From the NCBI GenBank assembly GCA_017523725.1, contig JAFWVY010000023.1, positions 1 through 64,000 on the forward strand: DNA of 64,000 nt, read 5' to 3'. Of this stretch, positions 29,161 to 55,409 are shown in pieces. The first letter of the stretch is position 1; every line of letters begins with the position of its first letter. Below the pieces are notes generated by a model. It had not been told where the DNA came from. It did no database searches and was given only the letters and a program-made list of their open reading frames with translations. Source of the stretch: Bacteroidales bacterium (GTDB lineage: Bacteria > Bacteroidota > Bacteroidia > Bacteroidales > UBA4181). A program made the position numbers and the translations under genes.

Positions 29161-30909
29161 TCAGCAGCTGATGAATTCGAACTCAAAAGTGGCCACCGAG
29201 GCGGACCGGATATTTGCCATTTTTTGTAACTGACTGATCAGTACGGGCATATCTTCGCGACCATCCACGACATTCTTGTCCAGCGAGAGGGTGACACGTT
29301 CCGTCAGATGCTTCCGCTCAAGTTCGGTCCGGACCGTCATGTCCTTGAGGGTATCGCGCCGGAATCCGGCCTGGGTGAAGAACCGGATGCAGAACTGCTT
29401 GAGATCGGCTTTCGTGACGATGCGGTCGTTGGTCTGCATATAGTAGCGGGCCAGCATCTTTTTTTCTTCCGGATCTGTCACCTCGTCCTTCCCGCCGGTC
29501 GGCTTCATCAGCAACCGTGTGGTCTTCTTGTCCAGGTCGCGCGGCGGATTGACGGCCGAAAGCAGGTCTATGTCATTGGCGTAAGCGCCGTCCGTGAAGA
29601 GTGCGGAAAGCCGGATCGGGTCGGCGGATGTCGTGGCGGCGTTTTGTTTCAGAATGGCGTAGATGCCCGATTGCGGTACATTCTCGTCTTTAATGATCGT
29701 CAGAATGTCCTTCAGCACGACATCAAGCCGGCGGATCTTGTCGGCGTTCTGCATCTGGTGAATCTTCTGGAACGCATAGAAGTCGGATTCGTAGCGTTTG
29801 GCCAGTTCGCTGGCCAGCCGGATCAGCTCGTCAGGGTTGAACCTTTCGCAACCGAAGCGGCGGACGTAGAATTTGTCTGCATCCTCGGGAGAAAGTTCTT
29901 CATCGGACACCAGGTTCATGAAGAAATCGTGGTGGTTGTTTTCGGGGGTCTTGCCTGTCAGCAGCCGCAGCCCGCTGTTTTCCTCGGCTTCGAAATTGAC
30001 TTCGTTGGCCAGTTTGACAATGGGCTCCCTGGGAGAGAGCGTAAAATCTTTCCGGATCACGTTGACGGCCGGGAAACAATTGATTATCAAACTTCTTGCA
30101 TCAAAATTGAAGGGCTGGACCATGTCGGAGAACTCGAAGACGAGGTTGATGGCGTCCGACGTGATGGGCCGGTCGAAACTGCCGTCCACCATGAAATAAT
30201 TGATGTTGCGCGAGGTCCACAGGTCAAACCATTGCGTCCGATATCCGAAGAGCAGGCTGTTGTTCAGGAAGGCGTTGGCGTTCGAGAACCAGGAACAGAG
30301 CGGGAACCTTTCGAATTCCCACGGCTTGATGAGGTTCACCTTCTCGTTGCTCCAGTACACGTTCAGGTCGCTGAACCGTACGCCGTCAATGAAGAAACCG
30401 AGGTTGCCGAGGTCGGCTTTCGGATCGGTGAACCGCAGGTTGACGTTCCATTTGTCGGATGCAATCTTGGTGACACTGTTGACGGTCGCCCCGATGATTT
30501 TGGTGTCGAACATCGGTTGGAACGGGAACAGTTCCTTGAGACGCAGGGACTCCCGCTTGACGAGGAAGGTCGATTCTTCGTTGACGTAGCACGGGGACGG
30601 GTCGCCGGCCTGCTTGCCGGTGGCGATGATGGTGAAGGACGGCACCGCCTGGGTCAGGTGATACGGCATGACCAGCTGCTCCAACGTGTCCATCATGCCG
30701 TTCTCGAGCTGCGCCATATCGCGTTTCACGCCGTTTATCTGGTAAACGAACGCCGAAATCAGGATGCCGAGCAGCGGATCCTTCTCGATACCATAGAACG
30801 GCGCGTTCGGGTTGTTGCTGTCCCATTTGCCCTCGCTTTTCCAGAGTTGCAGCACTTTTTCCATCAGGGAATTCACCTGCCGCTGAATATCGTATTCTTC
30901 GTTTGTCAT
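29161..30909 (-). CDS. tssF: T6SS baseplate protein TssF
   Basis: 582 residues, the size of TssF. The N-terminus (residues 30-90: DPLLGILISAFVYQINGV, then LEQLVMPYHLTQAVPSF) follows the TssF pattern in which a helical start precedes a P-x(5)-P-S segment. With TssG and TssK it forms the baseplate wedge on which the tail tube and sheath assemble, on the cytoplasmic face of the inner membrane. It is the last gene of the T6SS run, 12 bp after tssE. Sequence is diverged from proteobacterial TssF. Confidence 0.8.
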   Translation of the reverse strand: MTNEEYDIQRQVNSLMEKVLQLWKSEGKWDSNNPNAPFYGIEKDPLLGILISAFVYQINGVKRDMAQLENGMMDTLEQLVMPYHLTQAVPSFTIIATGKQAGDPSPCYVNEESTFLVKRESLRLKELFPFQPMFDTKIIGATVNSVTKIASDKWNVNLRFTDPKADLGNLGFFIDGVRFSDLNVYWSNEKVNLIKPWEFERFPLCSWFSNANAFLNNSLLFGYRTQWFDLWTSRNINYFMVDGSFDRPITSDAINLVFEFSDMVQPFNFDARSLIINCFPAVNVIRKDFTLSPREPIVKLANEVNFEAEENSGLRLLTGKTPENNHHDFFMNLVSDEELSPEDADKFYVRRFGCERFNPDELIRLASELAKRYESDFYAFQKIHQMQNADKIRRLDVVLKDILTIIKDENVPQSGIYAILKQNAATTSADPIRLSALFTDGAYANDIDLLSAVNPPRDLDKKTTRLLMKPTGGKDEVTDPEEKKMLARYYMQTNDRIVTKADLKQFCIRFFTQAGFRRDTLKDMTVRTELERKHLTERVTLSLDKNVVDGREDMPVLISQLQKMANIRSASVATFEFEFISC

Positions 30910-30921
30910 AATCGTTTGTTT

Positions 30922-31401
30922 TTACCAGACCACGGTGTTGAATTCGTAATAATAGAACGCATGGGTCTCATCGTTGATCTTGCCTGAAACCGTAATGTGG
31001 ATGATTTTTCCGCGCGACTGGAAATCCATGGAGACCGATACGTCCTTCAGCCGTTTCTCATAACGCTCGATGGTGTGCTTGAGTTCGGTGGCGAAAGTGT
31101 CGCTGGTCCGGCTGTCCCCGATGATCTTCTTGTCGTACAGCGGATTCTTGATGTCGAAAAGCTGCGTGTTTTCTTTGGGATTCAGTTTGTTCTGCACAGT
31201 TTCGAAGAATTTGGCCCGTTCGACGCTGAAGCTTTCGAAGCGGAAGTCCTCCAAGGCGAACCCGAAGTCGGGATCGGCAATGCAGCAGAACTTGTTGGAC
31301 GCGATGAGCATGTCGAGAAAGGCATCGATAGACTGTTTGGTCTTGTCGTTGCCGGATTCGACCATCGGGTAGGATATCCTGAACGGATGCTTGATGAACA
31401 T
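30922..31401 (-). CDS. tssE: T6SS baseplate protein TssE (gp25-like)
   Basis: 159 residues, the usual TssE size. The C-terminal half has the gp25 pattern IERYEKRLKDVSVSMDFQSR, where a helix with R-x-E-x-R-L leads into strands. TssE joins the baseplate to the first sheath ring. It sits between tssK (18 bp upstream) and tssF. No signal peptide. Confidence 0.8.
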   Translation of the reverse strand: MFIKHPFRISYPMVESGNDKTKQSIDAFLDMLIASNKFCCIADPDFGFALEDFRFESFSVERAKFFETVQNKLNPKENTQLFDIKNPLYDKKIIGDSRTSDTFATELKHTIERYEKRLKDVSVSMDFQSRGKIIHITVSGKINDETHAFYYYEFNTVVW

Positions 31402-31419: not shown

Positions 31420-32286
31420 TTAGATGGTCGGACAGAATATCTCTTCGACCGGTTCCGGTTCGGGCACTTCGGCCGGCTTGGGTTTCAGGTCGTCCATGGC
31501 TGTAAGCGTTTCGCCGATGAATCCGATGAATTGACGCAGGAAAGGCTCGATGTCAAGCAGGTTGTATTCCGGCAGGTCGGCACTCCGTTCGAAAACAGGA
31601 TAGCTGAGCACGGTGGCGAGTTTGCTGCAGCGGGAGGCCAGCATGCGCGGTGAATCGTCCGCCCGGAAGTCCAGCAACTGTCCGGCGATGAGTCGCACCA
31701 GCAGCTTGTCCTCCAGTTTCTGGAAACTTTCGTGCTCCAGGATCTTCTGGATCTGCTGCTTGATCTGGTCCACTTTTTCCATCAGGATGAGGGAACTCCG
31801 CGCCGACACGACCGGCAGGATGAAGTCTTCGTCAACGGCACGTCCGTTCGCGTTTTTCAACTTCAGCAGCGGTACGGCGTCGTGAATTTCGTCCAGCGTC
31901 CGGCAGTCGAACACATATTCGTATGCGATGTGCGGGATGCCGCCGCGGTCGTACGATCTGGTCTTGTCACCGATGGAAACCGTGAGATACAGCACGTCAT
32001 CCTTCCGGTCCGGGATGGGCACGGACAGATTCTCCTCGGACTGCGCAATGACAACCTGGCCGGAGGGCAGCATCAGGGTGCATTCGATTTCCCTGATCTG
32101 GATATCCTTGTTCGAAAGGTCATAATTCAGGACGAACTTGCTTTGCGGAACGACCCCGAACACCTGGGTCGCCAGAATCTTGCGAAGTATCATGCGGTGT
32201 TCGCCCAGGTCGTTCTCCATGTCAATGAACGTCTGCGGCGTGATTTCCATGCCGGCATGCCAGTCGATTCTTATGTCTGTATTCAT
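31420..32286 (-). CDS. tssK: T6SS baseplate protein TssK, short form
   Basis: 288 residues. The start IRIDWHAGMEITPQTFIDME matches the TssK opening W-x-E/A-GM-x(2)-P/TPQ-H/T-F. TssK adapts the baseplate to the membrane complex. Proteobacterial TssK is about 440 residues with a phage receptor-binding-like C-terminal domain. Here the last residues (PKPAEVPEPEPVEE) are a low-complexity tail and that C-terminal domain seems missing, so contact with the envelope complex must differ. It lies 4 bp after tssG. Confidence 0.75.
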   Translation of the reverse strand: MNTDIRIDWHAGMEITPQTFIDMENDLGEHRMILRKILATQVFGVVPQSKFVLNYDLSNKDIQIREIECTLMLPSGQVVIAQSEENLSVPIPDRKDDVLYLTVSIGDKTRSYDRGGIPHIAYEYVFDCRTLDEIHDAVPLLKLKNANGRAVDEDFILPVVSARSSLILMEKVDQIKQQIQKILEHESFQKLEDKLLVRLIAGQLLDFRADDSPRMLASRCSKLATVLSYPVFERSADLPEYNLLDIEPFLRQFIGFIGETLTAMDDLKPKPAEVPEPEPVEEIFCPTI

Positions 32287-32290
32287 TTTC

Positions 32291-33064
32291 TTACAGTTGT
32301 GTATTATAATCTAGTACAAGGGGTGCGGTATCGGAGAGGATGAAGGCCTGCTGGAAGTCCTTGATGGCAAAGGTCATCGAGATGGGAACCGGCAGGAACC
32401 ATTCTTGCAGGAACTCAAAGAAGGGCCCGAGCAGGGCCATGAATTCCTGGTGCGTTTTCTGGAGGAGGCCCCGTTTGTTGATGACGAAACGGATGTCAAC
32501 GGGCGAAGTATGCTCCCATGTCACCGGACAGCGGAACACGTGCGAGAGCAGGTCGGAAATAAGCCGGATGTCGCCCCGGATCTTGGTCACATGCAGCAGC
32601 ATGGGCGCGAACCGCCGGATATACACATTGGGTTCGTTCTCCAGGTCGAAGTCGAAGAATTTCTTCAGCATGTTGCAGACGCTCTGCCGGACGGCTTCCG
32701 AGGCCGTCTTCTCAATCTGCAGGGACAGGTTGAAGATGGCCGTGTCGAAGGGCATGAAATAGCTCTTGATGGTCTGCTCCTCTTCCATGATTTCATTGAC
32801 GCGCGCCGTGAACTCGCGGCCGCTCTTCTGCCGCAGCTCCTGTTCATCGAAGAACAGTTTTTCGGGCAGCACCCGGTAGATGCCGTTGCGCGAGGTGAGA
32901 ATCTGCCTGGCGCCCGGATCGCAGCGTTGCAGGTCGTTCACGTAGTTTCTGCGGAAGAAACTGTCGTGATGGACCGTCCATTCGTCCACGTCCGGATAGT
33001 ACTGCGCAAGCAGGGTTTCCGCCCGCAGGTCTTCCATGTCCACATATTTGTCAACAACAATCAT
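32291..33064 (-). CDS. tssG: T6SS baseplate protein TssG
   Basis: 257 residues. Overall layout and position (between the other baseplate genes) fit TssG: an all-alpha/beta protein with HVTKIRGDIRLISDLLSHVF in the middle and LVLDYNTQL at the C-terminus. Two TssG copies clamp one TssF in the wedge. It begins 2 bp after the E1-like gene. Sequence similarity is weak by eye, so gene order carries much of the call. Confidence 0.65.
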   Translation of the reverse strand: MIVVDKYVDMEDLRAETLLAQYYPDVDEWTVHHDSFFRRNYVNDLQRCDPGARQILTSRNGIYRVLPEKLFFDEQELRQKSGREFTARVNEIMEEEQTIKSYFMPFDTAIFNLSLQIEKTASEAVRQSVCNMLKKFFDFDLENEPNVYIRRFAPMLLHVTKIRGDIRLISDLLSHVFRCPVTWEHTSPVDIRFVINKRGLLQKTHQEFMALLGPFFEFLQEWFLPVPISMTFAIKDFQQAFILSDTAPLVLDYNTQL

Positions 33065-34289: not shown

Positions 34290-35456
34290 TTATTTAAGTG
34301 TATAGACCAGGCCGATTTCAATGGTCGGCAGGAAAGTCCTGAGACCGTCCCAGGCACTGTCCGCCGTGTAACCTGTCGCATCTTCGACCGGTTTATGGTC
34401 GATCATCGGTGTTACGGCATATTCACACCGGATGCCGGCTTTGAACAGCAGACTCGATGCGTAGCGCACCGGCCGCAGGCAGCCGGCGGGGATGTAGGTG
34501 CCGAATGCGGCGTGTGCCCACAGGGCGAAAGAACGTGCTTCGGGTTCCGCTGCAACGGTCTCCATATTGACTGGCAGGACGACCCTTCCGGGGGTCTCCT
34601 CGCCATGGGGTGAGACAATCCGATAGTCGGAACTGAGGCAGATCGACGGTGTGACGCCGAATTTGCCGTAAACCGTGATTCGGCTGGACGAAGGCTGGCC
34701 GAAGCAGCATTGTACGGGGAAGTCCAGATATTTGACGGTCATTTTTTCCTTGACACGGTTCAGTGTCTGGTTGTTGTCAAACCAGAAGAACGTGTTTTCG
34801 TCCGGTGGCGCCAGTACGGATATGGCCCGCCAGCCGACGCCGGCTTCCATGGAGAAGGGGAAGTTCAGGCCCCACCGGCCGGTGCCGAAATACAGCGCAG
34901 CCTGTGTGAACCATCTGAAATCCTTGACGGTCATGTCTTCGTTGTCCCGGTCGTAGAGTACCGGTCCGGCGGCCGCGGTGACACCGATGACCGGCGTCCT
35001 GGCGGGCAGGCCGATGAAGAAAGACATGTCCCCGTTCCTGCCGCCCGTCACAGCCTCCTGCGGCCTGTCCTGCCGGGCGGCGCGGTCTAACTGCAGGTTG
35101 TGAAGCGTCATGTTCAGGGCTGTGATGGTATTGTTCAGCGAATCAATCTGGATTTCCTTCTGCATGTACTTTTCGCTCAGCGCTTCGGCTTCGGCCGAGG
35201 CCTGCGTCAGCGTGTCGATCAGCCGGTCCCGCCTGGCGACAGCTGCTTCGAGCGTTTTAATCTGCGCCTGGAGTTCGTCGACGACCTGGTATTTGACATT
35301 TTCCATGTAGTCTTCGACCGTCCCCTTGTAATAGTCCACTTTCAGTTCCTTCCCGTCTTTCGTCCTGCCGTGGATGCTTTGCATCTGCGACTGGGCGCAG
35401 ACCTCGACGGCCATGCAGCACAGGCTCAGCGTAATCAGAAAACAGACGTGTTTCAT
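34290..35456 (-). CDS. Outer-membrane beta-barrel-like protein with coiled coil (T6SS-linked)
   Basis: 388 residues. A signal peptide ends near EVCAQS. Residues ~30-130 are a coiled coil (VDELQAQIKTLEAAVARRD and following heptads), then an alternating barrel-like region to the C-terminus, which ends in IEIGLVYTLK, a typical barrel last strand. It may span the outer membrane, with the coiled coil reaching into the periplasm, and so stand in for TssJ-type envelope anchoring. This role is inferred from the operon position only; no named family is recognised. Gene follows the RING/FHA gene by 20 bp. Confidence 0.6.
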   Translation of the reverse strand: MKHVCFLITLSLCCMAVEVCAQSQMQSIHGRTKDGKELKVDYYKGTVEDYMENVKYQVVDELQAQIKTLEAAVARRDRLIDTLTQASAEAEALSEKYMQKEIQIDSLNNTITALNMTLHNLQLDRAARQDRPQEAVTGGRNGDMSFFIGLPARTPVIGVTAAAGPVLYDRDNEDMTVKDFRWFTQAALYFGTGRWGLNFPFSMEAGVGWRAISVLAPPDENTFFWFDNNQTLNRVKEKMTVKYLDFPVQCCFGQPSSSRITVYGKFGVTPSICLSSDYRIVSPHGEETPGRVVLPVNMETVAAEPEARSFALWAHAAFGTYIPAGCLRPVRYASSLLFKAGIRCEYAVTPMIDHKPVEDATGYTADSAWDGLRTFLPTIEIGLVYTLK

Positions 35457-40208: not shown

Positions 40209-41402
40209 TTATTTGATGAGTTTCTTGGCGGTTTCGTAATTGTTGAGAATCTTGGAATCCAACCGGCTGGCGCACGATTGCGACAATCCTCTGATGGTGG
40301 CGTCGGTGGCGCTGACGAGGCTGTCGAAGGCCGCTTTCTGCGAGGCCTTGGTGGCTTCGTCCCGGGCGGAGATCCAGTCGTTGGCCAGGCCGTTGAGCCG
40401 GCTCGTGGCTGCTCTGATCTCGGAGTTCAACGCGGCGGGATCGCACGGTGCCGGAGCTTCGGCGGCGGCGCCACCGCCGGCCGAGGTGTCGTAGGCCTTG
40501 ATCCGGTCCATGCAGCTCATCAGGTCGTCATAGGCATACTGCAGTTCTTCGCAGCCGCTGTTGTCGAAACGGCGGGCGTCGATCTTGGAGAATTGCTCAA
40601 CCAGCAGTTCCTTGCATTTTGCCAGCAGTGCGCGGCCCGATTTCTGGAGTTCTTCCATCTTGGCTTCACCGGCGGCGAAAACCGACAGATATTCCTTGGC
40701 AATGACCAGCAGCTGCTCGTTCTCCTTGCAGGTGTCGATGGTCAGATTGATCTCAATCTCAATGTCGGAGCCGATGTAATTCAATACTTTGCCTTTAATC
40801 ATCGGCATGGGGTTCTTGAGGATGACATACACCTTCTTGGCCCCTTCCTCCAGCTTGAAAGATATTTCCATCTCCGATTTCCCGTCCAGCGGAAGAATCT
40901 GACGGTCGATGGGTTTGGACAGTTTCATCGGCGAGGTCAGTTCGCATCCGTCGTAATTGCAGCCGCGGGCGTCTGCAAACGTCTCGACGGAGGAGTCGTA
41001 CAGGTTGAGGAAACTGATCTGTTCGTTGAACGTCGCGGTGGATTTGAAGGCACCGCCCCGTTTCTTGAAATAATCCTTGAAATCTTCAATTTTGATTTTG
41101 TTCTGCGGCAGCCACACGAATTCGTTGGCCCCGGCCGCGGCTTTCGCCGGCTGTGCTTTCTTGCCTTTCCCGGCCGGTTCTTCCGGTTTCGGGGCGCTCA
41201 GTTTGAACGTCATGACGCGGTCGGTCTTGCTGAACTGTGCCGTGAGTTCCAGGTCGACCGAAGGGATGCGGTCGTTGTAGCCCTTGACGGTGATGGTCTG
41301 CGTAACAGGCTGGTCCGGTTCGAGGTTGAAGGTGTAAGCGGATTCCGCGAATGCCATGAAGGGCATCGCGGCCAATACTGCGGTTGCTAATTTCTTGATC
41401 AT
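40209..41402 (-). CDS. Exported protein of unknown function (T6SS-linked)
   Basis: 397 residues with a signal peptide ending at MAFAES and no other membrane segment, so probably periplasmic. The N-terminal half is beta-rich; a low-complexity patch (GKGKKAQPAKAAAGA) sits near residue 80. The C-terminal ~170 residues are helical with several Cys and a Gly/Ala/Pro-rich insert. No family recognised. Lying 8 bp after the E2-like gene and 12 bp before the coiled-coil membrane protein, it probably belongs to the envelope part of the secretion machine. Confidence 0.6.
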   Translation of the reverse strand: MIKKLATAVLAAMPFMAFAESAYTFNLEPDQPVTQTITVKGYNDRIPSVDLELTAQFSKTDRVMTFKLSAPKPEEPAGKGKKAQPAKAAAGANEFVWLPQNKIKIEDFKDYFKKRGGAFKSTATFNEQISFLNLYDSSVETFADARGCNYDGCELTSPMKLSKPIDRQILPLDGKSEMEISFKLEEGAKKVYVILKNPMPMIKGKVLNYIGSDIEIEINLTIDTCKENEQLLVIAKEYLSVFAAGEAKMEELQKSGRALLAKCKELLVEQFSKIDARRFDNSGCEELQYAYDDLMSCMDRIKAYDTSAGGGAAAEAPAPCDPAALNSEIRAATSRLNGLANDWISARDEATKASQKAAFDSLVSATDATIRGLSQSCASRLDSKILNNYETAKKLIK

Positions 41403-41410
41403 GATATTGT

Positions 41411-42007
41411 TTAGTTTAGATTGTTTCTGAGTTCTTTAATCCATCCGTTGGGCTCGGCCTGCTCCAGCACCCATTCGGCCACTTTCAGGTCTTCCGGGAA
41501 TGGCGGTGTATTCTGTGCGTGGTATTTCTCGTATTTCAGATACAGCATCACGCGGTCGACATACCAGGCCAGGTCGGTGAACGTGCCGCAGGCCGGCGTG
41601 TTCAGACACACATGGCCGGCAAAGTCGCCGTAATACCGGATGTTCGGATGCCACGGATGCGGAATCTCCCGTCCGTCCCCGTCGGTCGTCAGAAACCGGA
41701 ATTCCAGTTTGCTGTCGATGGCGGGATAGTTGTTCGGAATTTGGATGACCATGCGGAATTCGTCTCCGAAAACCGGCCGGTTCCATCCGTCTCCGTCTGC
41801 AGGAAGGACGCCGCAGAACGAGTGCACCTTGAAAACGACCTCGTACATGGTGGGGAGATGGTCGGCATTGCGGCGCCTGACGGTATAGGCAATGTCCGGT
41901 TCGTCCCTGAACCTTGCGTCCATGGCGGTCCACTCATACATCAGCCTGCGGTTCTTGCCCGTGAAGCGGATGTTTCTATACCGGTCTATTTCCTGGTGCG
42001 GATCCAT
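41411..42007 (-). CDS. E2-like ubiquitin-conjugating enzyme
   Basis: 198 residues, UBC fold. The N-terminal helix (RRLMYEWTAMDARF) is followed by strands, including FRMVIQIPNNYPAIDSKLEF, which parallels the F-x-I-x-F-P-x2-YP-x(3)-P core of E2s. Then comes His120-Pro121-Asn122, the HPN motif that builds the oxyanion hole, and Cys134 in GHVCLNT, corresponding to the catalytic Cys of ICLD in canonical E2s. The HPN-to-Cys distance is four residues longer than usual. It would carry the Ubl, encoded 19 bp upstream, as a thioester. Cytoplasmic; start at 42007. Confidence 0.88.
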   Translation of the reverse strand: MDPHQEIDRYRNIRFTGKNRRLMYEWTAMDARFRDEPDIAYTVRRRNADHLPTMYEVVFKVHSFCGVLPADGDGWNRPVFGDEFRMVIQIPNNYPAIDSKLEFRFLTTDGDGREIPHPWHPNIRYYGDFAGHVCLNTPACGTFTDLAWYVDRVMLYLKYEKYHAQNTPPFPEDLKVAEWVLEQAEPNGWIKELRNNLN

Positions 42008-42026: not shown

Positions 42027-42341
42027 TTATCCGGCAATCGGATCCGAAATGATTTCGAGTGTCTCTCCCGGCTTGACATTGTAGTCGAGCAGCGATTTCC
42101 TGGATCTGCCGACCCTGGGCTGCAGGATGATGTCACGTCCGGTGGCTTCGTCCTTTTTGCCGAAGAAATACTCCGTCGGCACATAGTCCACCATCTCGGG
42201 CATGTCGAAAATCCGGGTGCCGGTGTTGTCAGCGGCTTTCCGCAGATTGCTCATCAGCGTCTCAAGTTCGGTGTTCGGATCGGTCACCTTGAATTTGATG
42301 GTTTTGTTCTTGTACCTTAAAAATACGAAAAAATCGTCCAT
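42027..42341 (-). CDS. Ubiquitin-like protein with C-terminal Gly
   Basis: 104 residues. A beta-grasp layout: FFVFLRYKNKTIKFKV is the first hairpin, then a helix, then the end LLDYNVKPGETLEIISDPIAG (positions 84-104). The last 21 residues align without gaps to ubiquitin 56-76: LxDYN, then TL, two hydrophobic strand residues, and a final Gly at the Gly76 position. Gly75 is Ala here. No residues follow the Gly, so no processing is needed before E1 adenylation. About 25 extra residues lie between helix and last strands. The E2 gene follows by 19 bp. YukD-like relatives are possible. Confidence 0.82.
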   Translation of the reverse strand: MDDFFVFLRYKNKTIKFKVTDPNTELETLMSNLRKAADNTGTRIFDMPEMVDYVPTEYFFGKKDEATGRDIILQPRVGRSRKSLLDYNVKPGETLEIISDPIAG

Positions 42342-45863: not shown

Positions 45864-46985
45864 TTAACAGTTAAAACTGCAAATTTCTGTCTCTTCGCAA
45901 CCGATGGCCTCACAGTCGTTGGTCAAGGCCTCGTAAACTGCCTGCGACAGCTTGTCGGCATCGTACCGGAGACAGTCTCCGGGATTGGTGATATAGAGGT
46001 ATTCGATGACAATGGCCCGGTCGCCGAGCGCATTGTCATTGCTCACAAACGGATGCGATATCGAACGTCTTACGCCGTTGCACTTGAGTCCGGTCGCGGC
46101 GGCAATCCGGCGGCTGATGCGGCAGGCGGCGCGCAGTGTTTCTTTCTGCTCCGGATCCAGCCGGAAGGGATAGCTGCTGCCGCGGTTGAAAATCTTACGG
46201 TCGTCCTTGCCGTCCACGCTGCGGACGATGGTGTGCACGCCCGTGCTGTAGCCGTCCGCCGCACGGTAGGATGTGCAGGTTTCACCGGTGGCCTCCATGG
46301 TGCACATCTCTCCCTGATGGGGGCAGTCCGGGGCGGTGCAACTCTTGATGTCGAGGAAACGGCACGGTGCCGCGCTGATTTCGTGTGCGATGAAATAGAG
46401 TGCGTCCTGATTTTCCGGCGCGCCGTATTTCAGCCGGAGGTCGCGGCACGGCTTGCCGGGCTGTCGGCACATGACATAAGCCCTTTCGTGGTGCGGACAG
46501 TCGCCACGTTCGCCGTTCCCGGCCTCGCAGGTGAGCGGTGCCTTGTTCAGCTGGGTGAATTTTCCGCAGATATGGTTTTCGTCCCGGAAGGAGCATGCAT
46601 ATTTTTTATCTCGCAATGCGGGTGTGCCGTGTCCGGCGGACAGGTCACGGTTGAGGGCACAGGTCTCGTCGCACCGTCCGATGTCCCCGACCGCAGCTTG
46701 TCTCGCAAGCTGGCCGGAAACCTTCTGACATGCAGGCATCTTGAGCGGAAAAACCTGTATGCGGGCATTCTCATCGTTGCATTGTGCGATGAACCGGGCT
46801 CCGATTTTCTTGGCGAGGTCTTCCTGTCTCAACCGGATGTCCGGGTTTGCACCGGTGACGGTGACGCTCCTCTCCGGACAAAAGAGAATATCGCACGCCA
46901 TGCACCCGGCGAGGGAAGTCTCCGGATAGCTCTCGGCGCTGACGACCGTGATGGCAGGCTGATATTTCTTGTGTTCCCAGTCCAT
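45864..46985 (-). CDS. Cysteine-rich protein with amidase_3-like motifs, probable T6SS effector
   Basis: 373 residues with about 25 Cys. Motifs in the order of N-acetylmuramoyl-L-alanine amidases (amidase_3) can be made out: His119 in SAGHG, Glu135 sixteen residues later, His201 in ALYFIAHEISAAP (compare DLFISIHANA), TGVHTIV (compare GVETYY), and Glu328 in AIVIEYLYITNP (compare VLVELGFITNP). Two CPH-x(5-8)-C-x(6-8)-C repeats (163-180, 221-237) lie around the third motif. No signal peptide. Placed between the PAAR-like tip and the metallopeptidase, it is a good candidate for a peptidoglycan-cleaving effector. Homology is by eye only. Confidence 0.5.
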   Translation of the reverse strand: MDWEHKKYQPAITVVSAESYPETSLAGCMACDILFCPERSVTVTGANPDIRLRQEDLAKKIGARFIAQCNDENARIQVFPLKMPACQKVSGQLARQAAVGDIGRCDETCALNRDLSAGHGTPALRDKKYACSFRDENHICGKFTQLNKAPLTCEAGNGERGDCPHHERAYVMCRQPGKPCRDLRLKYGAPENQDALYFIAHEISAAPCRFLDIKSCTAPDCPHQGEMCTMEATGETCTSYRAADGYSTGVHTIVRSVDGKDDRKIFNRGSSYPFRLDPEQKETLRAACRISRRIAAATGLKCNGVRRSISHPFVSNDNALGDRAIVIEYLYITNPGDCLRYDADKLSQAVYEALTNDCEAIGCEETEICSFNC

Positions 46986-46986
46986 G

Positions 46987-47418
46987 TTACGAAACGATTT
47001 CTATGATGCCGCCAAAGGCGCAGTTCAGTTTGCAGGTATTGAGCAGCGCCGGCTGGTTCTCGATAAGCAGGTCGGTTTTGGGCGGAGCCCATGGTGCGGG
47101 GATGACCGGGGTGCAAGGCATCGGTGTCAGGGTGCCCAGATTGGCCGCCGTGGCCGCTGCCACCTGCGGGTTGGCCATCGACTGGCACATGCCGAACGGC
47201 GGGATGTTAACCATGGGTTCCTTGTCCATGATATTGCCCATCGGCACGCCGCCTATCTGGACGGTACGCGAGGGCAGCACCACCAGCGAGGAGGGCGCCA
47301 TGCCGAAACTGCACTTCATGTTTACGCCGCTGCCTACGAATTTCTGGACAACGGGTGTGCGCGGTATGTCGGGGCCTTGCTCCAGCGCCTGCTTGATTTC
47401 GAGAAAGAAACTAGACAT
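46987..47418 (-). CDS. DUF4280 PAAR-like spike tip protein
   Basis: 143 residues. The family text is clear: VNIPPFGMCQSMANPQVAAA, then TPMPCTPVI, and ENQPALLNTCKLNCAFGGII at the end. DUF4280 proteins are PAAR-like and are thought to cap the VgrG spike and hold cargo. Four Cys could bind metal at the tip. It begins 5 bp after vgrG and is followed 1 bp later by the Cys-rich gene, which supports joint loading of cargo. Confidence 0.85.
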   Translation of the reverse strand: MSSFFLEIKQALEQGPDIPRTPVVQKFVGSGVNMKCSFGMAPSSLVVLPSRTVQIGGVPMGNIMDKEPMVNIPPFGMCQSMANPQVAAATAANLGTLTPMPCTPVIPAPWAPPKTDLLIENQPALLNTCKLNCAFGGIIEIVS

Positions 47419-47423
47419 GTGCG

Positions 47424-49769
47424 TCAGTTGATTTTGGTGAGCTTAGAGTTGATGTCCAGTCCCATGCCGCCTTCGATGGAACCTTTGCCGGTACTTTCCG
47501 TTTCCAGGGTGTAGGTTTTCTTGCCTTTCAGGATAAGGTCGCCATCGGTTGCCATGCCGCATTTTTCCTTGGCACTGATCGCCGCATATTTGTTGCTGAC
47601 GAGGTAGACTCCCTTCTCGTTGCTGGGAAGTTGGCCCAGAAGGAGTGCACCTGTCGGTTCGCTGTTTCCGTCATAGCCTGACGGCGAAACCTGTAATACC
47701 GCCTTGTCGCGGACAAGATGCAGATGGCTGCCGTCCCCGGTGAAAGATCCGTTTTCGTCCATGGGGCCGGCACCGACGAAGAAGTCGTCTTGTACACGGA
47801 TATCGGCTTTCTGGTGGATGCGGGAGTTGACGTTGGCGAAGTCCTGGTAGAATTCCATCGTATCTTCTGAAATCGACTGCTTCGCTTTGAACTGGATGGC
47901 GTTGCCTGCGTCCAGCACGATGTCTTGTTCCGCCTTCAGTTCGATGTTGCCTTTGGACTCGAGGCGGATGACCTGGTCGTCGGTGGACAGCGTGATACTG
48001 TAGTTCTTCGTGTTGTTGTCGTATATCTTTATGTATCCGCCCTTTTCGGTGTCGTGGATCTCGACCGTATGACCGTTGCGGGTCCGAAAGGCCTTGCATT
48101 CGTTGTTCTTGTTGGTGCCGCCTTCGTATTCGTCCCAGCCTTCTGCGTTCTCGTTGTAGGTCCCTTTGTCTTCCACCCAGGTTTCCGGCGGGTTCTGGGC
48201 CGCCGAATTACGGACGGAACCCATGACAAACGGAGCTTCCGCGTTGCCGTGGTAGAAACCGACCATCACCAGGTCGCCGATTTCCGGGATAAAGTAGCAT
48301 CCGGTGGAATCCATACCTACATAAGGCTGCAGCACGTGGATGAACGGCGTATTCCATTCGGTGTTGGCAACGGGGCCGAACTGTTTGTCGCCCACTTCCT
48401 GCCACAGCAGTCGCACGCGGACACGTCCCAGTTTCTCCGGATCGACGTTGTCGGTGACCACGCCGATCTGCGGCTGACTCCTGGGATAGGTGTCCATGTC
48501 GCCGTACATCGGGACGCCGTTCGCATCGCGGGCCGGATAGGGCGGGTAGGTGGATTTGGCCGCCATGGCTTTGAACCGGCAGCGGACGACGTCCGCGTTA
48601 CGCCGTATCCTTTCGTCCCTGGCGCCCCATTCGTAATCCAGGTCGATAATCCTGAGCGGTTCATGGTCGACGTTCTCGCCGGTGGTCGTCTCGTCCACGA
48701 TGACGATGGTGCTGCCGAGGCGCAGTTTGCCGCACTTGGTTTCGCCCGAGCAGAGCATCATGCCGGCTTTCAGGCAGTTGTGATTGACGGCGGTGGCCAC
48801 GTTGGGCGTCCGGTCATCTTCCTGGTTCTCGGGCAGGTTCACGTCGGCCGATTCGGTGTCGCTGATGACGACACTGCCCTTGCCGAAGAAGTCGGCGGAG
48901 ACTTCGTAGGTGGAGTCCGCCATGGCGTGGATGGATTCTGTCTTGGCCTGCGCGCACTGCGCTTCATCGGTTTCTCCGACAATCTCCATGCTGGTCCATC
49001 CGGTAGCGAAACTCATGTCACTCAGGAGAACACCTTTGTGCTGGGCCAGTTGCAGGTCGTAGCAGTAGCTTTCGATGCCCGCCTGGTTGTACAGCCGGAT
49101 GGGATCGCCTTCGTCCGGCATCTGGCCGAATATGACCTTGCCGCCCTCCGAATAGAAGAACTCTCCGTAGCGTTTGGCCATGCGGACGATGAAATCGTAG
49201 GTGCTCTCGTTGTACCGGACGTTGTAGCCCGAGGCGTGCGATGCGGTCTCCCGTGTCTTGACCTCGGCGTCGAGCAGCGGGTTGCCGTCGGCATCCTTGA
49301 ATTTCGCCAGCCGGTCCTTGATGAGTTCGTCCAGCGGATAGAACTCATAGACTTCGCAGCCGGGGTGGTCTTTCATCACGCAGTCGGGACTGAAGGCGGT
49401 GCAGATGATGCGCCAGGCCGTGTTGCCGATGTGCTGGAACTGCACTTTCGTGATGAATCCGACGAAGAAATCCGGATTTTCATCGGTGATTTCTTCGCCG
49501 TTCTCATCGGTGTAGGCGGTTGAGATGGCGCAGTGAACCTTTTTCCCCAGCAATTCCTGACGGAGGGAGAATGAAATGTCGTCGTTGGATTTCGTCAGCA
49601 TGTAATCCCCCAGGTTGTTCTGCAGGAAGAACACGAAACTGTTGGGTTGCAGCAATTTTTTCCTCAGATGGAAGTAGGTGCAGTCGAGTCCGCTTCCTAT
49701 GTCTTCGATGGATTTGTCATTGATTTTCAATGACAAATCGACCAATCGGAATCCTGTGGCTGGTCTCAT
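47424..49769 (-). CDS. tssI: T6SS spike protein VgrG
   Basis: 781 residues. The gp27-like part fills about the first 420. The gp5 OB-fold follows, with IGVVTDNVDPEKLGRVRVRL (437-456) and then TPFIHVLQPYVGMDSTGCYF and PEIGDLVMVGFYHGN, the classic VgrG block. A beta-helix needle with ITLSTDDQVIRLESKGNIEL and its neighbouring repeats ends the protein. No extra enzymatic C-terminal domain is seen. It forms the trimeric spike that carries effectors, and lies 12 bp after the second Hcp gene. Confidence 0.92.
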   Translation of the reverse strand: MRPATGFRLVDLSLKINDKSIEDIGSGLDCTYFHLRKKLLQPNSFVFFLQNNLGDYMLTKSNDDISFSLRQELLGKKVHCAISTAYTDENGEEITDENPDFFVGFITKVQFQHIGNTAWRIICTAFSPDCVMKDHPGCEVYEFYPLDELIKDRLAKFKDADGNPLLDAEVKTRETASHASGYNVRYNESTYDFIVRMAKRYGEFFYSEGGKVIFGQMPDEGDPIRLYNQAGIESYCYDLQLAQHKGVLLSDMSFATGWTSMEIVGETDEAQCAQAKTESIHAMADSTYEVSADFFGKGSVVISDTESADVNLPENQEDDRTPNVATAVNHNCLKAGMMLCSGETKCGKLRLGSTIVIVDETTTGENVDHEPLRIIDLDYEWGARDERIRRNADVVRCRFKAMAAKSTYPPYPARDANGVPMYGDMDTYPRSQPQIGVVTDNVDPEKLGRVRVRLLWQEVGDKQFGPVANTEWNTPFIHVLQPYVGMDSTGCYFIPEIGDLVMVGFYHGNAEAPFVMGSVRNSAAQNPPETWVEDKGTYNENAEGWDEYEGGTNKNNECKAFRTRNGHTVEIHDTEKGGYIKIYDNNTKNYSITLSTDDQVIRLESKGNIELKAEQDIVLDAGNAIQFKAKQSISEDTMEFYQDFANVNSRIHQKADIRVQDDFFVGAGPMDENGSFTGDGSHLHLVRDKAVLQVSPSGYDGNSEPTGALLLGQLPSNEKGVYLVSNKYAAISAKEKCGMATDGDLILKGKKTYTLETESTGKGSIEGGMGLDINSKLTKIN

Positions 49770-50288: not shown

Positions 50289-50301
50289 GGTTTTTCGATT
50301 G

Positions 50302-50336
50302 AAAAAGAGCAAAGGCAAAATGAATTGCCTTCGCTC
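50302..50336 (-). terminator. Hairpin with T-run after hcp (partial terminator or processing site)
   Basis: On the minus strand GAGCGAAGGCA pairs with TGCCTTTGCTC across an 8-nt loop (50307-50317 with 50326-50336, one mismatch), followed by five T residues (50302-50306). It lies between the main hcp and the next T6SS gene. It probably lowers downstream expression or protects the 3' end of hcp mRNA, giving the large excess of tube subunit. Confidence 0.7.
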
Positions 50337-50351: not shown

Positions 50352-50744
50352 TTATGCCCACTCGTTCGTGTAGGTGACGGAGCCGTTGGTGATTTCCCTG
50401 CAAGAGAGGACAATCTCCTCGTAGTGGCCCATCTTGTCTTCCCACAGTTCGACGAAGTCGACGCAGTAAGCATCCGTGAAGGAGATTTTCTTCATCAGAT
50501 TGCCGCTCTTGGTTTCGTTGAAGACGATAGCGCCGTTCTTTGCCAGATTCGGGGCGATCATCCAGTTCAGCAGATCCGGATTGCCGTCGTTCAAGGCTTT
50601 CACGCGGATCGTAATCTTGCCGCCGCGCGGGATGCCGGACATCTGGCCTTCGACGTCGGTCGCCTGGTTGAAGGAATAGGTAACCATCATGACCTCGCGT
50701 TCGGCGAGACCGTCAACTTGTAATGAAACAGGTGTTGTTGCCAT
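50352..50744 (-). CDS. tssD: T6SS tube protein Hcp
   Basis: 130 residues, typical of Bacteroidetes Hcp. No signal peptide. Family-like features are the N-terminal strand VSLQVDGLAEREVMMVTYSF, the conserved RGGKITIRVKAL and the FTDAYCVDFVELWEDK strand region. Hexameric rings stack to form the tube expelled by sheath contraction. It follows tssC by 40 bp and is followed by the hairpin at 50302-50336, consistent with high expression. Confidence 0.88.
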   Translation of the reverse strand: MATTPVSLQVDGLAEREVMMVTYSFNQATDVEGQMSGIPRGGKITIRVKALNDGNPDLLNWMIAPNLAKNGAIVFNETKSGNLMKKISFTDAYCVDFVELWEDKMGHYEEIVLSCREITNGSVTYTNEWA

Positions 50745-50784: not shown

Positions 50785-52161
50785 TTATTCGAGTGCAGTG
50801 TCGGCAGCCATGTTGTCCTTGTCGGCCTCGAGCTTGATGACGAAGTTCTTGGCGGCGAAGAACGGGGTGATGGAAATGTCGACGGTGATGTTCTTGGTCT
50901 TCGGATCCTGCTTGGGTTCGCCCAGTTTGTAACGCTGGAAGAAGTTCTGGTATCCCTGGTACTGGTTGAGGAATCCCTGAATCTTGTCTTTCAGTTTCTG
51001 GGGCGATTTGTACGGATCCCAGTTCTCGAGGGCCACTTCGTGGACATAGTTCATCAGGACTTTCTTGATCCAGTCGAACACGCGGACGATGGGATATTCC
51101 ATCATGGCATCCAGGTCGCCGTTGTACAGGGTGTTGTTGTTGAAAGCCATGACGCGTCCTTCAGAGAATACCATCGGAACCACATGGTCGTCCATCAGCG
51201 AGGCGATTTCCGATTTCATCAGATCGAGTTTCACACCCTTCACGTCGGACAGCGTACCAAACTTCTTGCCGGCACGGCCCTGGGATATCGGGGTGTTCTC
51301 GTCGTACATCATACCGGCGAGCGCACCGGCGGGCGAAATGAAGAAAGCGTCTTCGTCCTGTTCGTCATAGCTGAGTTTCTCCGATTCGCGGCCCACAATC
51401 CAGTTGCAGGCCATGACCACGTTCTGCAGGGCGGCGTCGCTGTCCACGAACCCCTTGGTGACTTCCTTCAGGTCGTCCAGCGAGTTCTCGTCCTCGAGCG
51501 CCGTGTCGGTCACGAGCATGACTTTGTATTTGTGCGCCATCTTGGCCCAGCGGAGCAGGTCCACCCTGTCTTTGAAGACACCGCCCGGGATGACCACGAA
51601 ACTGTAGCTGTCTTTCAGGCTCAGACGGTCGAACGCGTGCTTCAGCAGGTCGTCGACCTGTCCCTGGAAGCTCGAATCGCTGTCGGTGATAGCTTCTTTG
51701 TCCACATTGACAATCTTGAGTTTCTCCACCTTTTCCGAACCGGAGTTCTTGAAGAAGGCGTCCAGCGCGCGGTAGGAGCGCTCCAGATTCTTGGAGGCGT
51801 CGAGGGCGTCGGTGATGCCTTGCGTCAGAATCTTCAGGTATTTGGCTTCTTTCTGCTTGCAACTGTCAACCAGCTCGGTAGAGGCGGTCTTGTCTTCCGA
51901 CAGAATGTCCAGCCATGCGCGCAGTTCGGTGGCCAGGGCTTTGCGTTTGGCTTCCTTGCGGCTGTCGTTCAGGAACGACTCCTTCAGTGCCTTCTTGGCC
52001 GGATTCATGTCTTCTGCCGTCGGGATGATGCCCTTGATGACGGAGAAACCGCCGAACCGGGATAGCAGGTCGCTGACGTCTTTCTTCTGCTGTACTTGCT
52101 GCTCTTGCTGTTGCTGCTGTTCCGCAGCCTTTTGCATCTGTGTGGCTCTGATATCTTCCAT
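50785..52161 (-). CDS. tssC: T6SS sheath large subunit TssC
   Basis: 458 residues, the usual TssC size. After a Gln-rich N-terminal stretch the protein shows the TssC layout, with YSFVVIPGGVFKDRVDLLRW in the first half, VMACNWIVGRE, and KKVLMNYVHEVALENWDPYK near the C-terminus. It pairs with TssB to build the contractile sheath. The tssB gene lies 9 bp upstream. Start at 52161. Confidence 0.85.
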   Translation of the reverse strand: MEDIRATQMQKAAEQQQQQEQQVQQKKDVSDLLSRFGGFSVIKGIIPTAEDMNPAKKALKESFLNDSRKEAKRKALATELRAWLDILSEDKTASTELVDSCKQKEAKYLKILTQGITDALDASKNLERSYRALDAFFKNSGSEKVEKLKIVNVDKEAITDSDSSFQGQVDDLLKHAFDRLSLKDSYSFVVIPGGVFKDRVDLLRWAKMAHKYKVMLVTDTALEDENSLDDLKEVTKGFVDSDAALQNVVMACNWIVGRESEKLSYDEQDEDAFFISPAGALAGMMYDENTPISQGRAGKKFGTLSDVKGVKLDLMKSEIASLMDDHVVPMVFSEGRVMAFNNNTLYNGDLDAMMEYPIVRVFDWIKKVLMNYVHEVALENWDPYKSPQKLKDKIQGFLNQYQGYQNFFQRYKLGEPKQDPKTKNITVDISITPFFAAKNFVIKLEADKDNMAADTALE

Positions 52162-52170: not shown

Positions 52171-52623
52171 TTAACTGAGTTCGTTTAACAAATATTCCAG
52201 ATAGTCTTTGAGTTCTTCCTTGCTGCCGGCGTCTTTCAGGATCTCGCGCAGCTTCTTGTTCTGCTCGATCTGCTTTCTCACCTTGGCGTAGCTGTCCATG
52301 CTGGCTTTCTTGTCCGAAAGGAATTCGCTGTTGGCCACCAGGTTGCCTTTGCCGCCATTCGCTTCGAAGTCCTTGATGCTGTTGAAGTACAGCGTCTCGG
52401 AAATAGATCCGCCGTCTTCGTCGGTGAAGTCGACTTCTACGTTGGGTTTGAAGTGCTGGAAGACATCGTCAAGCGTCTTGGCGTCTTCGAATAGTTCGGG
52501 GTCTTCGCCCTGCGCGTCCGATGTGTACTGGTCGATCATCAGCGTCTTGTTGGTGTCCAGTGCACTTACATTGCTGCCGGATTCCTCGTCTATCGCTTTG
52601 GAAATAAAGTTTTTTTCTTCCAT
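52171..52623 (-). CDS. tssB: T6SS sheath small subunit TssB
   Basis: 150 residues, slightly short. The segment FQHFKPNVEVDFTDEDGGSI, then LYFNSIKDFE, is the TssB hallmark (F-x-P in the strand that interlocks with TssC), and the C-terminal helix begins QIEQNKKLREILKD. The N-terminal ~55 residues are acidic and lack clear structure. It sits 41 bp after clpV and 9 bp before tssC. Confidence 0.82.
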   Translation of the reverse strand: MEEKNFISKAIDEESGSNVSALDTNKTLMIDQYTSDAQGEDPELFEDAKTLDDVFQHFKPNVEVDFTDEDGGSISETLYFNSIKDFEANGGKGNLVANSEFLSDKKASMDSYAKVRKQIEQNKKLREILKDAGSKEELKDYLEYLLNELS

Positions 52624-52664: not shown

Positions 52665-55160
52665 TTAATTGAGGAAATTCTCGATGCGGTTTCCGTTCAC
52701 CTCGAACGACACGGTGCCGTCCGTGCATTTCACTTCGACCGTGTCGCCGGCTTTCATTTTGCCGGAGATGATGAGTTTCGACATCGGCCGGCGGAGTTCC
52801 TTGCGGATGATGCCGATGATGGGACGCGCGCCGAACTGCGGACTGAAGCCCATCATGGCGATCGCCTTCTTGGTCTCGTCGTCGATCTTGAGCGTGATGT
52901 TCTGCTCGTCGAGCAGTTTGACCAGGCCCTTGAGGTGGATGCCGAAGATCATGGTGACGATCTGCTCCGTGATCGGCGAGAACGGCACGATTTCGGTGAG
53001 GCGGCCCAGGAATTCGGGACGGAAGAAGTCCTGCATGATGTTCTGCAGGTCGCTGTTCTTCGGGATGACCCCCTTGCCGAACGAATCGACGATGAACTTG
53101 CTGCCGATGTTGGAGGTGAACAGGATCAAGGCATTGGAGAAATCGCCGACGCGTCCCAGACGGTCGTGCAGCTTGCCTTCGTCCAGAATCTGCAGGAAGA
53201 GGTCGAACACCGACTTGTGGGCCTTTTCGATTTCGTCGAACAATACCACCGAATACGGTTTCTGACGGATCTTGTTGACCAGCAGGCCGCCCTCCTCGTA
53301 GCCGACGTATCCTGGAGGCGCGCCGTACAGTAGAGCCACGGAGTGCTCTTCCTTGAACTCCGACATGTCGAAGCGGATCAGTGCCGATTCGTCCTGGAAC
53401 AGGAATTCTGCCAGGGCCTTGGAAAGCTCGGTCTTGCCGGTTCCCGTCGGGCCGAGGAAGAAGAACGACCCCATCGGCTGGCCTTTCTTGTTCAGGCCGG
53501 AACGCGATTCGTAAATGGTGTCGAGAATGATCTTGACCGCATGGTCCTGGCCGACGACGCGGCGTTTGAGAATCTGCTCGGCATTGACCAGACGCTCCCG
53601 TTCCTTCGACTGGACCTTGCCCATCGGGATGCCGGTCTGCTTGGCGACGACCGCGAACAGGTCGGCTTCGCGGAGCGCGGTGCGCTTGCCGGCCGCCAGC
53701 CCTTTCAGCTTGCTGATGATGCCGCCGAGATAGTCGAGCCGTTTTTCGACGCTGTCTATCTTGGCGAAGTCGGTGTCGTCGTCCAGCTGTGCGATGAGCA
53801 GTACGTTGATCTTGTTGAATATTTCATAATGCAGCCAGTTGAGTTCCATCATCATCCGCTGGTTGTCGAAGCCTTCGGGATTGGCCTTCAGCTGGTTGAG
53901 TTTCTGCTCCACCGCGGCGACGTCATTGGCCGACACATCGTTCATCGTACGGACCAGCGCCATGGTGCGGTCGATGAGGTCGAACACCGAATCCGGCATG
54001 GCTTTTTCGGTGAGGTAGCGCTTGGCCAGCCGGATGGCTTCCGAGATGACGTTGTCGTCCACCGTGATGCCGTGGTGCTGTTCGAAGGTCGAAACCGCCC
54101 CCTGGACGATGCGGAAACAGGTGTCTGCATCGGGTTCGTCAATCTGTATTTTCTCGAACTTCCGGACCAGTTCCTTGTCGGTCTCGATGTTCTTGGTGAA
54201 TCCGTCGACCGTTGCGGTGGCCATGAGCAGAAGCTCGCCCTTGTTGAGTTCCTGCTTGAGGATGTCGCCGGTGCCGTAGAGCGCCCCCTGCTTGTCCATC
54301 ATCTTGTCCAGGCCCTCGATGACCAGTACCGTGTTGCCCATCGCGTTCAGTTCGCTGAGGACGCTTTTGAGCCGGTCTTCGGTCTCCATCTTGTTGACAG
54401 CGCCGCCGGACAGCGCGGCCAGGTCGAGTTCGTACACCACGGCCTGCTGCAGGAACGAAGGTACCGCACCGTAAAGCAGCCGGTTGACGAATCCGTTGAT
54501 CAGGGAGGTCTTGCCCACGCCGGATTCGCCGACGATCAGCAGGTTGGATTTGGTCTTGCGGCCGAGAATCTCGAAGAACGAAGCGATTTCGCGTTCGAAT
54601 CCGATGACGGGCGTGGTCTTGCCGGAGGCAACCAGTTCGTTCTTGTCGATGCAGTATTTCGACAGCGTTTTCTTGGCGTTGGCCGTCATCTTGACAGGTT
54701 TGGGCGCGCCCGGTGCGGACGGTGCGGCTTCGGCCGCCACGACGTCGATGACTTCGGACGGGGAGAGCGGCAGGGTCTTCAGCTGGTTGACGCTGAATCC
54801 GGCACCCGGCGTGACCAATGCGGCCAGCAGTATCTTGTTGTCGATTTCGTCGGCACCCATTTTCTGCCGCAACGAATCGGCTTCGTCAAAAACGAGCCAT
54901 GAGGCCTCGTTCGGAGCTACGTCGCTCATCGGGCGGGAGGCTTTGGGCGTCATGGCGATTTCGCAGTCGGCCCATTCCAGCAGATAGTAATAGTCCTTGT
55001 CCAGGTCGGTTTCGATGAACGGGACAAGACCCATGTCCTTTTGCAGCAACGCCTTGAAAAGATGGCACGGATAAATCGCGTCGTTGGCGTTTTCGATGGC
55101 GAAACGCGCGGCTATCCGGAATAGCTCGTCAAACTGTTCCAAAAGTTGTTTTCTGTTCAT
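52665..55160 (-). CDS. clpV: T6SS sheath-recycling ATPase ClpV (TssH)
   Basis: 831 residues, AAA+ ClpB family. An N-terminal domain (1-145) is followed by NBD1 with Walker A GESGVGKT (211-218), a coiled middle domain, and NBD2 with GPTGTGKTEL and SALIRFDMSEFKEEHSVA. It unfolds contracted TssB/C sheath for reuse. First gene of the T6SS run. The start at 55160 (ATG) was chosen over an in-frame TTG at 55202, which gives a non-family extension. Confidence 0.92.
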   Translation of the reverse strand: MNRKQLLEQFDELFRIAARFAIENANDAIYPCHLFKALLQKDMGLVPFIETDLDKDYYYLLEWADCEIAMTPKASRPMSDVAPNEASWLVFDEADSLRQKMGADEIDNKILLAALVTPGAGFSVNQLKTLPLSPSEVIDVVAAEAAPSAPGAPKPVKMTANAKKTLSKYCIDKNELVASGKTTPVIGFEREIASFFEILGRKTKSNLLIVGESGVGKTSLINGFVNRLLYGAVPSFLQQAVVYELDLAALSGGAVNKMETEDRLKSVLSELNAMGNTVLVIEGLDKMMDKQGALYGTGDILKQELNKGELLLMATATVDGFTKNIETDKELVRKFEKIQIDEPDADTCFRIVQGAVSTFEQHHGITVDDNVISEAIRLAKRYLTEKAMPDSVFDLIDRTMALVRTMNDVSANDVAAVEQKLNQLKANPEGFDNQRMMMELNWLHYEIFNKINVLLIAQLDDDTDFAKIDSVEKRLDYLGGIISKLKGLAAGKRTALREADLFAVVAKQTGIPMGKVQSKERERLVNAEQILKRRVVGQDHAVKIILDTIYESRSGLNKKGQPMGSFFFLGPTGTGKTELSKALAEFLFQDESALIRFDMSEFKEEHSVALLYGAPPGYVGYEEGGLLVNKIRQKPYSVVLFDEIEKAHKSVFDLFLQILDEGKLHDRLGRVGDFSNALILFTSNIGSKFIVDSFGKGVIPKNSDLQNIMQDFFRPEFLGRLTEIVPFSPITEQIVTMIFGIHLKGLVKLLDEQNITLKIDDETKKAIAMMGFSPQFGARPIIGIIRKELRRPMSKLIISGKMKAGDTVEVKCTDGTVSFEVNGNRIENFLN

Positions 55161-55409
55161 AACGTGGTTATTTTCTCGGTAAATGTCAGTTTCATGCCTC
55201 AAACAAACGCTTCTTCCCGTTTTCCCGTGCCGCCCGTCAGTCTTTCCAAGATGGAATAACCTTCAGGAAATCATGAAAATACGGGATGATACTACATAAT
55301 TCTCTTAAATTACAAAAGAAGCGAAAAAAAATGAGTATAGCAAATTTTTATGTAATGGAAGCAATTTTTTGCCTATTTTCGCAGTCCAAACCCATAAAAC
55401 TTGAAAAAG
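55161..55409. other. Intergenic region between clpV and the exported coiled-coil gene
   Basis: About 250 bp, AT-rich in its right half, separating divergent genes. It must hold the promoter of the T6SS run, yet no TAnnTTTG is found on the minus strand here. On the plus strand TATTTTCG at about 55374-55381 is a one-base variant of the -7 element for the gene at 55410. No RNA gene or repeat is seen. Confidence 0.5.

Follow-up and report, generated by a model that had tools for sequence, protein, structure and literature searches.

An HPN-type E2 and a predicted ubiquitin-like conjugation pathway within a type VI secretion operon of a Bacteroidales bacterium

Whether the firing of a type VI secretion system (T6SS) needs ubiquitin-type conjugation is a question raised by one stretch of DNA from a Bacteroidales bacterium (GTDB lineage UBA4181; genome G000 of our collection). 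The window, positions 1 to 64,000 of the forward strand of contig JAFWVY010000023.1 (assembly GCA_017523725.1), carries what looks, judged by its sequence, like a complete tagging pathway for a ubiquitin-like modifier (Ubl) within the contractile injection operon of a gut-type bacterium. The bacterial pathways of reported function that consist of an activating enzyme (E1), a conjugating enzyme (E2) and a Ubl are anti-phage systems. If our reading is right, the pathway described here would instead serve an injection machine, and it would do so with a canonical HPN E2 and its own RING and JAMM proteins. A sequence-only reading of the window had singled out the E2, P0001, and on that protein it was largely sound; what it overlooked is the more surprising fact that the E2 is part of a cascade in a T6SS operon that has no TssN.

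The open reading frame for P0001 is real and lies on the minus strand, and frame 1 of the plus strand is interrupted by a stop codon across 41411-42007. On the minus-strand product the earlier residue numbering is correct, with His120-Pro121-Asn122 (the HPN motif), Cys134 within VCLN and Cys140; the protein also contains Cys65. The window, translated in six frames, contains the pattern HPN-x(6-14)-[IV]C[LIGN] once, and of 20,000 shuffled versions of the protein 2 contain it. P0001 scored 16.5 bits against the Pfam family UQ_con, below the curated cut-off of 27, and a profile of its family matched UBE2K in the Protein Data Bank (PDB) with an E-value of 4.8e-6. The AlphaFold2 model (predicted local distance difference test, pLDDT, 88.9) has the UBC fold. 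A Foldseek search with this model gave 78 matches at E <= 0.001, and among the matches listed all 50 were E2s, while VIA-align returned UBE2K as the best match (Z 13.0, 141 residues aligned, root-mean-square deviation 3.6 Å). As modeled, P0001 is a protein with a eukaryotic E2 fold, and the assignment as a canonical-style E2 with HPN and a catalytic Cys134 is borne out by the model, the UBE2K match and the invariance of the motif.

That invariance was assessed with E2 relatives from the genome collection (nine), a search of the order (four) and the wider phylum (two, more distant), and with an alignment of 13 sequences that comprises P0001 and 12 relatives with identities down to 30%. His120, Pro121, Asn122 and Cys134, and with them the catalytic Cys and upstream HPN Asn of E2 enzymes, are invariant in 13/13 aligned proteins and present in two further, more distant E2s. 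Homologues without the equivalent of Asn122 or Cys134, which would have spoken against the assignment, were looked for within the E2 family and none was found. Glu172-Asp173 is also invariant in the 13 and falls near the canonical acidic loop, with an uncertain register. The Asn-to-Cys spacing in canonical E2s is 8. In P0001 it is 12, as it is in every E2 relative, those from genomes G456 and G550 included, and the loop is four residues longer than usual, as had been noted; the spacing of 8 is itself a common trait and not an absolute requirement, UBE2K having 9. A profile alignment places a 3-residue insertion in the P0001 loop relative to that of UBE2K. By sequence, the long HPN-Cys loop is a stable, fixed trait of this E2 family. 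The nearby Cys140, to which attention had also been drawn, fared differently: position 140 is Cys in only 3/13 E2s and elsewhere Tyr, Val, Ala, Phe, Leu, Ser, Met or Ile, and on these grounds Cys140 was rejected as an unlikely additional or substitute active-site residue, which leaves Cys134 as the catalytic candidate. The E2 is more conserved than the adjacent TssG, with about 57% versus 32% identity to locus L003 as computed from protein distances.

UBE2K (E2-25K), the nearest class I eukaryotic E2, shares with P0001 the UBC fold, the HPN motif and the signature G-x-[IV]-C-[LI]-[ND], but identity is about 20%. The likeness to eukaryotic E2s is closer than that of BilB from the bacterial ISG15-like Bil system. 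BilB has a CEHH motif and no HPN, and in that system the modifier, BilA, contains two Ubl domains (PMC11354881). The CEHH arrangement (Cys, Glu at +6, His at +8, His at +13) does not occur in P0001, where Cys134 is followed at these positions by Cys140, Thr142 and Ala147. The BilABCD operon resembles the one described here in combining a Ubl, an E1, an E2 and a JAB/JAMM protein, and differs from it in its E2 and in lacking the single-domain Ubl, the RING protein and the T6SS setting.

Directly upstream of the E2 gene, across a gap of 19 bp, lies the gene for the Ubl. All 15 aligned Ubl sequences have an invariant Gly preceded by Ala or Pro. Residues beyond this Gly occur in 3/15 (AK in L004, YLVV in L014 and GK in L043), and these tailed proteins all come from genomes having the JAMM gene. 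In the JAMM-less genomes G782-G787 (n = 6) the Ubl ends exactly in -PG, and to judge from these termini the six need no trimming. The Ubl model (pLDDT 87.6) shows a beta-grasp fold of the ubiquitin/EccD type, matching the ubiquitin-like domain of EccD5 with Z 10.7 and ubiquitin (1ubq) with Z 9.4, so that fold and exposed C-terminal Gly are both those of an E1-activated Ubl.

The putative E1 has a ThiF adenylation domain (Pfam match 4e-54) and conserves Cys187, the candidate catalytic residue, together with C168xxC171 and C261xxH264, which probably form a zinc site. Its C-terminal extension is UFD-like, judging from its position. The nearest protein in the PDB is the SUMO E1 UBA2 (1e-24), compared with 3.7e-7 for bacterial BubCD. 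A sulfur carrier pathway of the ThiS/MoaD type was rejected as the main reading because a dedicated HPN E2, a RING protein and a JAMM protein are present; the E1 is also slightly closer to UBA2 than to MoeB, which counts against it as well.

The 771-residue protein encoded upstream of the E1 is the probable E3, by its predicted domains. It runs from a signal peptide through a periplasmic VWA-like region, a transmembrane segment, a RING (about residues 404-447) and several further transmembrane segments to a C-terminal FHA domain. All of its domain matches fall under the Pfam cut-offs, and the RING and FHA labels rest on conserved residues. Eight zinc ligands in a C3H2C3 pattern are conserved in the T6SS-linked members, with the last Cys pair spaced wider than in canonical RINGs. 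In the members linked to an extracellular contractile injection system (eCIS; L042:12846-15227 and L043:12824-15172) the corresponding region reads DPITQ...VVKCK and by eye is like a U-box. The JAMM protein scores 22.9 bits against PF01398, barely above the cut-off of 22.5, and its residues Glu248, His320, His322, Ser330 and Asp333 are invariant and form the E...HxHPx(6)Sx2D motif; it is probably the enzyme for Ubl processing or deconjugation. The E2 shares its operon with a Ubl ending in Gly, an E1, a RING protein and a JAMM protease, and the Lys-directed conjugation predicted by the sequence-only reading is therefore a fair expectation, though still a prediction.

These genes (the cassette) form part of a minus-strand series that reads VgrG, PAAR-like, four variable genes, Ubl, E2, p397, p251, JAMM, VWA-RING-FHA, p388, E1, TssG, TssK, TssE and TssF. 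All gaps in this series are 1-20 bp, that between E1 and TssG being 2 bp, and the sheath, tube and ClpV genes lie upstream. With sheath, tube, spike, ATPase and TssK/TssE baseplate genes, the locus is a T6SS. Loci L002-L004 have the gene order of the window, and L006-L009 have the order E1-TssG-TssK-TssE-TssF-Ubl-E2-...-VWA-RING. In both, E1 is upstream of TssG, and the Ubl-E2 pair is found upstream of E1 or right after TssF. The cassette therefore stays inside the T6SS operon despite rearrangement, which argues against a passive passenger. The same arrangement bears on the idea that the cassette serves conjugation in phage defense or stress, like the Bil, Bub or CBASS (cyclic oligonucleotide-based antiphage signaling system) types, and merely happens to be located in T6SS loci. 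We regard this as improbable. Bacterial Ubl pathways with E1, E2 and JAB proteins are indeed known in defense (PMC10097602; for Bil and Bub, as cited in PMC13373217), the E1 matches the PADLOC E1-E2 models, and an nSTAND1 NTPase adjoins the cassette in G456. However, the PADLOC matches span only the generic adenylation domain, the HPN E2 is not of the BilB kind, the cassette sits within T6SS operons in two gene orders, and no relatives were found in phage, plasmid or viral collections, which also speaks against phage or plasmid carriage.

We place the probability at roughly 55% that reversible Ubl tagging at the inner membrane controls the assembly or firing of the injection machine. The cascade has strong backing from sequence, and its target and function are inferred. 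In the proposed mechanism, E1 would adenylate the C-terminal Gly of the Ubl, carry the Ubl on Cys187 and hand it to the E2, which would accept it on Cys134. The charged E2 would then be recruited by the RING-FHA protein, anchored in the inner membrane, on the cytoplasmic side, and the Ubl would be joined, probably to Lys, on a part of the machine or of its membrane complex, with Asn122 stabilizing the oxyanion during transfer. The membrane JAMM protease would trim Ubl precursors where needed and remove the tag. With both the candidate E3 and the protease fixed in the inner membrane, and with their genes linked to those of the baseplate, the machine is the likeliest target. Assembly, docking or firing would thereby be switched reversibly, much as the kinase/FHA/phosphatase route controls other T6SSs. 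Thr-phosphorylation control by PpkA, PppA and Fha (PMC3953482, PMC6082577) has reversible covalent modification and a membrane FHA protein in common with this proposal, and differs in using a kinase and a phosphatase where the cassette has Ubl conjugation genes. In G247, G258 and G331, T6SS genomes that lack both TssN and the cassette, the locus has a Ser/Thr kinase and FHA, with PP2C in 2/3, which fits a reliance of such T6SSs on some covalent control. The Bacteroidales T6SS loci of this kind L027, L030 and L031 contain a Ser/Thr kinase and FHA, and two of them a PP2C and an FHA-trypsin-like protein.

The absence of TssN, which in Bacteroidales usually serves as the membrane hub, adds a further possibility. 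Among 393 Bacteroidales genomes, the E2 occurs in five, TssC in 17 and TssN (PF17555) over cut-off in eight, and E2 and TssN are found together in none (0/393). TssN is likewise absent from the genome of the window and from nine further cassette genomes, and six TssN-positive loci contain no cassette genes. TssN serves as the dock for TssK and has a cytoplasmic domain similar to the ubiquitin-like domain of EccD (PMC10781749). Here the free Ubl matches that EccD domain and there is no TssN, which is a hint, though no proof, that docking has passed to a conjugated Ubl. It is possible, if doubtful, that the cascade is in this way part of the machine, a TssN/EccD-like Ubl reversibly attached to a membrane component replacing the TssN baseplate dock; the fold of the modeled Ubl and the pattern of presence and absence are what suggest it. 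Comparisons by hhalign of the Ubl with the C-terminal domain of TssN, of the VWA protein with TssN and of p251 and p397 with TssO, TssP and TssQ gave nothing convincing, the best E-value (0.01) covering a hydrophobic stretch. Fold and missing TssN would also suit a Ubl that acts as a non-covalent scaffold, a free docking domain of the TssN/EccD kind, with E1 and E2 activity lost or changed. This is very unlikely, since a pathway that had given up catalysis would hardly be expected to keep the invariant Gly of the Ubl, the HPN and Cys134 of the E2, the conserved Cys187 of the E1 and the JAMM residues.

Contractile systems other than T6SSs broaden the linkage. Three genomes carrying the cassette (G456, G550 and G016) lack TssC, which rules out a strict T6SS-only association. 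In G456 and G550, of one genus, the cassette is on the same contig as an eCIS, with sheath, gp25, VgrG-like spike, PAAR and eCIS_core cargo genes in both and tube and tape-measure proteins identified in G456. Because eCIS-type sheaths are frequent (55/365 Bacteroidia genomes), presence alone is weak evidence and physical linkage is stronger. Since relatives keep the pathway beside injection machines, the building or firing of a molecular syringe in bacteria may be governed by a ubiquitin-style switch. The neighbors invite another explanation, that the cascade tags or loads cargo (effectors or Hcp, VgrG and PAAR proteins), for instance to mark it for sorting or for self-protection, and does not control the machine. 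The cassette does adjoin PAAR, VgrG and effector-like genes in T6SS loci, and PAAR and eCIS_core cargo proteins in G456 and G550. Even so, we consider cargo tagging unlikely: the E3 and JAMM proteins are membrane anchored, the closest junctions involve the baseplate genes TssG and TssF, and the adjoining effector genes differ among loci while the cassette is constant.

Several points weigh against control of the machine by reversible tagging. Its chemistry and substrate are predictions. Protein distances of cassette and baseplate co-vary (Mantel r 0.54-0.92, p <= 0.034), and plain co-inheritance would be expected to produce such a correlation too. The exclusion of E2 and TssN is only suggestive (P = 0.088 in the unselected sample), and Ubl and TssN show no significant sequence homology. 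The RING of G456 and G550 is without its zinc ligands. The JAMM gene is absent genome-wide from six genomes around L005-L010, and reversal is not universal. In G016, finally, the cassette adjoins SrfB/SrfC-type genes, and the sheath/eCIS genes are on another contig.

In terms of known systems, bacterial Ubl conjugation has been described for CBASS Cap2 (PMC10097602) and for Bil and Bub (cited in PMC11354881 and PMC13373217). The Bub pathways and the Cap2 of type II CBASS likewise use E1/E2-based conjugation, but the cassette E1 is far nearer to UBA2, UBA1 and UBA3 than to Citrobacter BubCD, its E1 and E2 are separate genes, and no cGAS-like gene was recognized in the operon. T6SSiii with TssNQOPR (PMC10781749) has the same sheath, tube and baseplate families, a VWA-like domain in a periplasmic component and a ubiquitin-like fold, there inside TssN; the cassette genomes have the conjugation cascade in place of TssN. 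Among the open-licence literature, no paper linking an E1/E2 cascade to a T6SS or eCIS was found. Burroughs, Iyer and Aravind reportedly predicted prokaryotic RING/E2/E1/YukD-like Ubl systems with JAB partners in 2011, among them, it is said, bacterial E2s with an HPN-type oxyanion-hole configuration and E1s with a UFD. The T6SS/eCIS context would be new if it is absent from those predictions. The cascade bears on how TssN-less Bacteroidales T6SSs work and on the recurrence of EccD- and TssN-like ubiquitin folds in secretion systems, and should the Ubl replace the TssN hub, a bacterial nanomachine would be assembled through ubiquitin-type chemistry. Coordinates of the cassette and of the surrounding T6SS genes are collected in Table 1.

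Table 1. Features of the cassette and the T6SS operon in the window
Feature	Position	Strand	Basis or remark
E2-like conjugating enzyme, 198 aa	41411..42007	-	motif conservation, AlphaFold2 model, structure and profile matches
HPN codons of E2	41642-41650	-	
Cys134 codon of E2	41606-41608	-	
Ubl, 104 aa, C-terminus ...DPIAG	42027..42341	-	invariant Gly, beta-grasp fold model
p397, conserved cassette protein, 397 aa, probably exported	40209..41402	-	no known family
p251, conserved cassette protein, 251 aa, signal peptide and C-terminal transmembrane segment	39441..40196	-	no known family
Membrane-anchored JAB/JAMM metalloprotease (putative), 544 aa	37794..39428	-	invariant catalytic set
Membrane VWA-RING-FHA protein, 771 aa	35477..37792	-	weak domain matches, conserved residues
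p388, exported, 388 aa from likelier start 35456	34290..35456	-	barrel-like (outer membrane) by appearance only
E1-like activating enzyme, 405 aa	33067..34284	-	ThiF domain, conserved Cys
TssG baseplate	32291..33064	-	position and homology to other T6SS loci
TssK baseplate subunit	31420..32286	-	TIGR03353, 9.2e-9, below cut-off; other loci
TssE (gp25-like)	30922..31401	-	PF04965, 8.9e-9
TssF	29161..30909	-	weak family match, fitting position
PAAR-like (DUF4280)	46987..47418	-	family match
VgrG spike	47424..49769	-	family match
Hcp/TssD tube	50352..50744	-	second copy 49782-50318
TssC sheath	50785..52161	-	3.5e-105
TssB sheath	52171..52623	-	
ClpV/TssH ATPase	52665..55202	-	

Two proteins of the variable block linked to VgrG and PAAR have features of effectors. 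A 795-residue protein (43473-45860, minus strand), which matched no Pfam family over cut-off, has a C-terminal metzincin-like motif, HELLHQLNLRH, and is possibly a T6SS effector; a Cys-rich protein of 373 residues (45864-46985, minus strand), encoded after the PAAR-like gene, has a weak match to Amidase_3 (E 0.019) and is a possible cell-wall effector. Downstream of the G016 cassette (L019:11382-18540) are genes for SrfB (PF07520, 1e-213) and a Virul_Fac/SrfC-type protein (PF10139, 2e-139). About 20 kb from that cassette, on contig C685 (L035:3181-6884), there is another JAB gene, together with a larger protein that includes a fused Ubl-like domain; both adjoin an array of repeated paralogous proteins. 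Elsewhere in the phylum, in genome G572, where no sheath gene was found, an E2-like protein (E 3.3e-9) was set aside as belonging to a different, shorter system. It is part of an E2-JAB-E1-like trio (L044:9693-11875) with the E2 motif HPNVRKSSPNDIC and an Asn-Cys spacing of 10, and the trio looks like a separate Ubl system.
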